From positions 434,001 to 498,000 of the forward strand of contig NZ_JAMFKN010000001.1 of assembly GCF_023487995.1 (NCBI RefSeq): DNA of 64,000 nt. The letters run 5' to 3'. This DNA is from Thermohalobaculum sediminis (lineage in GTDB: Bacteria; Pseudomonadota; Alphaproteobacteria; Rhodobacterales; Rhodobacteraceae). Made by a program: the position numbers and the translations under genes. The notes beneath the pieces were generated by a model. The model worked only from the letters and a program-made list of their open reading frames with translations, did no database searches and was not told the DNA's origin. Positions 9,683 to 10,527 of the stretch are shown piece by piece (position 1 is the first letter of the stretch; every line of letters starts with the position of its first letter).

Positions 9683-9690
9683 CATCGACT

Positions 9691-9706
9691 CGGCCCCATC
9701 GGGCCG
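9691..9706 (+). terminator. Candidate fdxA terminator
   Basis: Perfect 6-bp stem CGGCCC/GGGCCG with a 4-base loop, eight bases after the fdxA stop, followed by GATTTCGTGT. It is a short stem with a weak T-tract. Confidence 0.4.
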
Positions 9707-9782
9707 GATTTCGTGTCAAATGATGAATTGTGACTCGCCCCTCGCACGGAGTTGATAGCTGATTCATGGCTTGTTCTGGGTC

Positions 9783-9982
9783 GTTGCATGATTTGCAGGG
9801 CCGCCATGCAACTGGGGGCTGGAAAATCCCAGCCTTTCGTGTTACATAATTGTCGCAGAGGCAAGGGTGCACCTGCTGTCGATGAGATCGTCGGTGCCAT
9901 TGCCTCTTTGACTTTTCGCACCACCCTGGGGAGTGACCTGGTGGCGCCCTTCTTTTGCCCTGATGCGTCCCCCCCCCGCATC
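9783..9982 (+). ncRNA. Candidate structured RNA or carD leader (tandem hairpins)
   Basis: The 326-base gap between fdxA and carD contains no gene but several inverted repeats in a row: GTTGCATG/CATGCAAC (9783-9790 with 9805-9812, perfect 8 bp), GGCTGG/CCAGCC (9817-9822 with 9829-9834, loop 6, followed by TTT), AGAGGCAA/TTGCCTCT (9857-9864 with 9900-9907, perfect 8 bp, enclosing GCACC/GGTGC and followed by TTTGACTTTT), GCACCACC/GGTGGCGC (9918-9925 with 9940-9947, one mismatch) and GATGCG/CGCATC (9962-9967 with 9977-9982). Such density suggests a small RNA or a structured 5' leader of carD. I could not fit it to 6S, SRP or tmRNA consensus features that I know. No clear promoter pair was found. 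Confidence 0.35.
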
Positions 9983-10008
9983 TCGGCTCCATGAAGACCG
10001 GAGATCCC

Positions 10009-10527
10009 ATGTCCAAGAAGTCCAGCGACACCGCGAACGTCTTTCGCGCGAACGACTACGTCGTCTACCCCGCGCATGGCGTCGGCAGGATCCTGTCCAT
10101 CGAGGAGCAGGAAATCGCAGGGATGCGGCTCGAGCTCTTCGTCATCTCGTTCGAGAAGGACAAGATGACCCTGCGGGTGCCGACGGCCAAGGCCGCTTCG
10201 ATCGGCATGCGTTCGCTCTCGAGCCCTAATCTCGTGGCGAAGGCGCTCGCGACCCTCAAGGGCCGCGCCAAGATCAAGCGCGCGATGTGGTCGCGCCGGG
10301 CGCAGGAATACGAGCAGAAGATCAACTCGGGCGATCTCATCTCGATCGCCGAGGTGGTCCGCGACCTCTATCGCGCGGGCGACCAGCCCGAGCAGTCCTA
10401 CTCCGAGCGCCAGCTCTACGAGGCCGCGCTCGAGCGGCTCACGCGCGAGGTCGCGGCGGTAGAGCGGCTCGACCATGCGAACGCCGCCGCCAGGGTCGAC
10501 GCGATGCTCGAGGCCAAGGCCGCCTGA
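10009..10527 (+). CDS. carD: CarD-family transcriptional regulator
   Basis: A 172-residue RNA-polymerase-binding regulator. The N-terminal Tudor-like RNAP interaction domain spans about residues 12-70 (DYVVYPAHGVGRI, then LFVISFEKDKMTLRVP), and a helical C-terminal domain that contacts promoter DNA follows. In other bacteria CarD stabilises the open complex at rRNA and many housekeeping promoters; in Rhodobacter it affects a large share of promoters lacking T at -7. ATG 10009 is preferred over an in-frame ATG at 9991 because GGAG lies upstream of 10009 and homology begins there. It ends in a very strong terminator at 10551-10582. Confidence 0.95.
   Translation: MSKKSSDTANVFRANDYVVYPAHGVGRILSIEEQEIAGMRLELFVISFEKDKMTLRVPTAKAASIGMRSLSSPNLVAKALATLKGRAKIKRAMWSRRAQEYEQKINSGDLISIAEVVRDLYRAGDQPEQSYSERQLYEAALERLTREVAAVERLDHANAAARVDAMLEAKAA

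Follow-up and report, generated by a model that had tools for sequence, protein, structure and literature searches.

The fdxA–carD intergenic region of Rhodobacteraceae: promoter and folded 5' leader of carD, a candidate cis-acting attenuator

CarD activates many alphaproteobacterial promoters, so that the amount of CarD affects much of transcription; what, then, is the function of the gene-free, hairpin-rich DNA that lies directly upstream of carD? In the 64,000-nt stretch of Thermohalobaculum sediminis DNA that was analyzed here (the window), this region covers positions 9683–10008, and a previous reading of the sequence alone had described it as a set of five inverted repeats between fdxA and carD that might belong to a folded leader or to a small RNA next to carD. 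The identity of both flanking genes was confirmed by their Pfam domains, which are Fer4 and DUF3470 in fdxA and CarD_TRCF_RID and CarD_C in carD. In nearly all Rhodobacteraceae examined, the two genes share a strand and are 235–450 nt apart, and the fdxA–carD gene order reaches many other alphaproteobacterial families.

All five inverted repeats were recovered. The first is a perfect 8-bp stem (GTTGCATG/CATGCAAC, 9783–9790/9805–9812), the second is a 6-bp stem (GGCTGG/CCAGCC, 9817–9834), and the third has a perfect 8-bp core (AGAGGCAA/TTGCCTCT, 9857–9864/9900–9907), whereas the fourth (GCaCCACC/GGTGGcGC, 9918–9947) and the fifth (GATGCG/CGCATC, 9962–9982) complete the series; the earlier description of two perfect 8-bp stems, and of further pairing within the third repeat, which extends with inner pairs to the hairpin 1 listed in Table 1, was thus accurate. 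The region contains seven exact stems that reach 6 bp, compared with 2.7 in dinucleotide shuffles (P = 0.02), and two that reach 8 bp, compared with 0.19 (P = 0.009). Among equal-sized tiles of the GC-rich window, 35% equal the region in 6-bp stems and 10% in 8-bp stems. The density of inverted repeats is therefore moderately above chance and unexceptional for this window, and because the folding energy of the single leader sequence is also only mildly low (z about −2), the case for a functional RNA rests on comparison with other genomes.

The comparison begins with the carD promoter. Its −35 element is TGGAAA (9820–9825), separated by a 17-nt spacer from the extended −10 element TGTTACATA (9840–9848, TG-T-TACATA, with TG at 9840–9841 and TACATA at 9843–9848). 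This promoter was missed by a generic sigma-70 scan alone; a scan taking the best-scoring site per gap, in which a few low-scoring assignments are doubtful (e.g., L080 and L092), placed a similar promoter in 102 Rhodobacteraceae fdxA–carD gaps, with a TTGAAA-like −35 element, a spacer of 15–18 nt, and usually TGnTATAnT. In several other alphaproteobacterial families (L147–L174), the fdxA–carD order is likewise accompanied by an extended −10-like site in front of carD. Counting from the −10 element, we predict that carD transcription starts near 9855 (±2 nt), which makes the start at 9750–9790 proposed from the sequence alone about 65–105 nt too early. The five repeats consequently do not all belong to one RNA: the last three lie in the predicted leader and the first two lie upstream of its start. 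Real as they are, the hairpins thus fall into two kinds, promoter-side DNA and leader RNA. Of the two promoter-side repeats, the first is only partly kept in a sister genome (G001) at 73% identity, as a stem with G–U pairs and one mismatch, and the second, which overlaps the −35 region, is not kept there.

Table 1. Features of the fdxA–carD region, in coordinates of the window
Feature	Position	Strand	Basis
Hairpin with weak T-rich tail just 3' of the fdxA stop, possible fdxA terminator	9690–9717	+	sole terminator-like match of the region in the scan
Inverted repeat with 8-bp stem, 5' of the promoter and outside the predicted leader RNA	9783–9812	unassigned	sequence
carD promoter	9820–9848	+	counterpart in 102 compared fdxA–carD gaps
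Hairpin 1, 5'-terminal in the leader, with TTTGACTTTT after it	9852–9912	+	folding; pairs kept in G001
Predicted carD 5' leader, ~154 nt	9855–10008	+	length fits family; identity to G001
Hairpin 2 (9918–9947) with T-rich tail TTCTTTT (9950–9956), weak terminator-like element	9918–9956	+	folding; terminator-like hairpin test
Hairpin 3, with nine-C loop	9957–9987	+	repeats; comparison with G001
Shine-Dalgarno sequence GGAG of carD	10000–10003	+	read from sequence
carD coding sequence, 172 aa, ATG at 10009	10009–10527	+	Pfam PF02559, PF21095

Leaders counted from the predicted start, with the start codon picked by Shine-Dalgarno score, are uniform in length across the compared gaps (interquartile range about 146–155 nt, mostly 140–165 nt), and the window leader falls inside this range. 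When all 94 leaders were aligned by sequence alone, gaps prevented a consensus fold; alignments of subgroups revealed a shared architecture of three helices in the relatives. P1 is a long-range closing helix; its 3' strand is adjacent to the Shine-Dalgarno sequence, with a median distance of 17 nt from the end of the strand to the ATG. P2 is a hairpin with the tip CAG-N-GC-UGCUC-GC-CUG in many relatives, and P3 is a hairpin with the arms GCGACAA...UUUUGUCGC and a U-tract. Covarying pairs across relatives, for which the sequence-only reading had proposed a search, were found. In a MAFFT alignment of 16 sequences made without fitting to structure, 16 of the 24 P2/P3 pairs have double-sided changes, 80.9% of cells are paired compared with 35–47% when partners are slid, and the covariation score is 0.388 compared with 0.232 after shuffling; a model-fitted alignment of 35 sequences agrees, although such an alignment leans towards structure. 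An alignment-free partner-swap test, applied to 95 leaders after correction for row and column effects, gave z values of −4.35 for P1, −10.5 for P2, and −8.3 for P3, against −1.97 to +1.6 for six control combinations. Covariance models of P2 and P3 (R1 and R2) were built from seeds picked by eye, and in a search of 149 genomes R2 had 20 matches at E ≤ 0.01, 17 of which lie directly upstream of carD, about 13 of these in genomes outside model building. The other three matches (L142, L144, and L145; E 0.003–0.009) lie away from carD and are probably due to chance. P1, P2, and P3 are maintained by selection in the relatives, and a folded leader is kept at the fdxA–carD site across Rhodobacteraceae.

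The window has the setting of this family leader: its fdxA and carD share a strand, an extended −10 promoter precedes the leader, and what lies between them is probably a diverged version of the family form. R1 and R2 match relatives but not the window leader, their search of the window's genome found no other copy (best match E = 0.45), and no P1 could be discerned in the window, where its strands pair no better than swapped partners. Homology of the window leader to the family structure is accordingly argued from position, length, and overall design, and position, promoter, and length make its derivation from the P1–P2–P3 form likely. Within its own lineage the evidence is more direct. Comparison of the leader with that of G001 yields 46 pairs, of which 38 are the same, seven have one-sided changes, one has a double-sided change (the compensatory U9964–A9980 to C–G in hairpin 3), and none is broken; six of the changed pairs are in hairpin 1, where own-partner pairing is unusually strong in the window and its sister (row P2w). 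Identity between the two genomes is 82% in the leader, 48% in the fdxA-to-promoter gap, and 65% at third codon positions of carD, and the block containing hairpin 2 (9913–9960) reaches 94%, exceeding the carD coding sequence. Because the three hairpins have no broken pairs and the leader is this well kept, the carD leader in the window is, to judge from this comparison, structured and under constraint in its own lineage. The Shine-Dalgarno sequence could in addition pair with CUCC at 9987–9990. The run of nine C residues in the loop of hairpin 3 (9969–9977; seven in the sister genome) is a slippage-prone tract inside the leader.

Taken together, we consider it fairly probable that the region consists of the promoter and the structured, cis-acting 5' leader of carD, which most likely serves as a partial-termination attenuator and probably helps to set the amount of CarD. 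Of the two forms suggested earlier, the leader is the one upheld by the conserved promoter, the leader length, the covariation, and the partner-swap test. A free-standing small RNA is the one that found no support: the stretch from the last hairpin to carD offers little space for a second promoter, the simplest view is that carD depends on read-through from the leader's promoter and shares its transcript, and an autonomous small RNA gene is less likely. Transcription would start near 9855 at the extended −10 promoter, the leader RNA would fold into successive hairpins ahead of the carD ATG, a hairpin with a U-tract would halt some RNA polymerases early, leaving only a fraction of the transcripts to extend into carD, and a helix beside the Shine-Dalgarno sequence may tune translation. 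Terminator-like hairpins are present in 54% of leaders compared with 10% of shuffles and cluster about 45–60 and 90–120 nt after the −10 element, and in the fdxA-to-promoter gap the corresponding values are 14% and 10%. The U-tracts are weak in the window leader, and since 46% of leaders lack such a hairpin by the test used here, attenuation may not be universal. One antiterminator pairing and a conserved upstream ORF were rejected. Pairing of the 3' side of HP1 with the 5' arm of HP2 is worse for real than for swapped partners (z = +2.3), the nine-codon ATG frame at 9882–9911 in hairpin 1, a candidate for ribosome-mediated attenuation, has no ATG in G001, and short ATG frames are inconsistently kept in the relatives.

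Partial termination at U-tract hairpins would be the most economical function by analogy with the dcw leader of Rhodobacter sphaeroides, from which the small RNA UpsM is made (PMC5089854) and which is likewise a long 5' UTR limited to Rhodobacteraceae, in which a terminator-like structure precedes an important gene. The carD leader differs in its gene and in its length (about 154 vs. 268 nt), and for the carD leader a released RNA or an involvement of Hfq, StsR, or RNase E would be hypothetical. As described in papers citing Henry, Ross and Gourse (2021, JB e00210-21), CarD is reported to repress its own promoter in R. sphaeroides, a finding on carD itself, and presumably on the promoter treated here, at the level of promoter repression; in connection with that work, as represented in the citing papers, we found no description of leader RNA structure. 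Leader effects and this repression would together set the CarD level. The order-restricted, covarying leader or terminator-like motifs HRC-8-4 and uORFC-8-2 of Rhodobacterales sit at other genes (the cco region and cysS), and the main text of PMC8632094, which describes them, does not mention a carD motif. Our literature search found no paper describing the carD leader, and the carD autoregulation that it did find is at the promoter level only. The sequence-only reading had recognized no 6S, SRP, tmRNA, or riboswitch features, and a search of Rfam with the window and ten relatives likewise found none at gathering score or at a plausible E value. 6S RNA (RF00013), also tied to RNA polymerase control and also a long hairpin, does not match at fdxA–carD; the likely 6S RNA of the window's genome is encoded elsewhere (G000:C11:12723–12880, L037; 31.8 bits against an Rfam cut-off of 46.4).

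Control of translation based on P1 would be the main rival to partial termination. A more far-reaching reading, which we hold to be rather unlikely, is that the carD leader contains a three-way-junction RNA common to the family that responds to a cellular signal (growth state, nucleotides, or a protein) and governs how much CarD is made through termination, Shine-Dalgarno access, or both. We think it somewhat less probable still that the leader works chiefly at the level of translation, or as a switch that binds a ligand or a protein. In such a switch P1 would close a three-way junction with its 3' strand abutting the Shine-Dalgarno sequence, and a metabolite or protein bound to P2/P3 would alter ribosome access. 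The reality of P1 in relatives, its distance from the ATG, and the common apical motif of P2 are consistent with a switch, but the conserved nucleotides are few and limited to some lineages, no ligand is suggested, and the window itself shows no evident P1.

A comparably unlikely alternative is that a trans-acting small RNA arises from the carD leader by termination or processing, as with UpsM. The match in family and layout, the terminator-like hairpins, and the further 5'-UTR-derived small RNAs of R. sphaeroides (UdsE, UdsF, and UdsG; PMC8625941) would fit such an RNA; across lineages, however, we found no conserved unpaired seed region, and the strong divergence of the sequence with retention of the structure fits action in cis better. 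It is quite improbable that the structured 5' UTR merely protects or destabilizes the mRNA, for example through a 5'-terminal hairpin acting against RNase E, without regulation: hairpin 1 does begin at the predicted 5' end of the window leader, but P1 and the stereotyped leader length would be left unexplained. Chance hairpins in GC-rich intergenic DNA, an explanation that suits the many tiles with as many 6-bp stems and the mildly low folding energy and holds for the repeat at the −35 region, which G001 does not keep, are refuted for the relatives by covariation, swap tests, and genome-wide localization and are very improbable as an account of the whole, given also the unbroken pairs in the sister genome.

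The reading that we favor, a cis-acting leader that most likely works by partial termination, would have consequences for the regulation of CarD. A conserved folded leader would add control at the RNA level, which is testable in R. sphaeroides or R. capsulatus, and if the three-way junction does sense a signal, an RNA-level input would be added to a global RNA polymerase regulator. As a potential new family for Rfam, the carD leader is a clear candidate.
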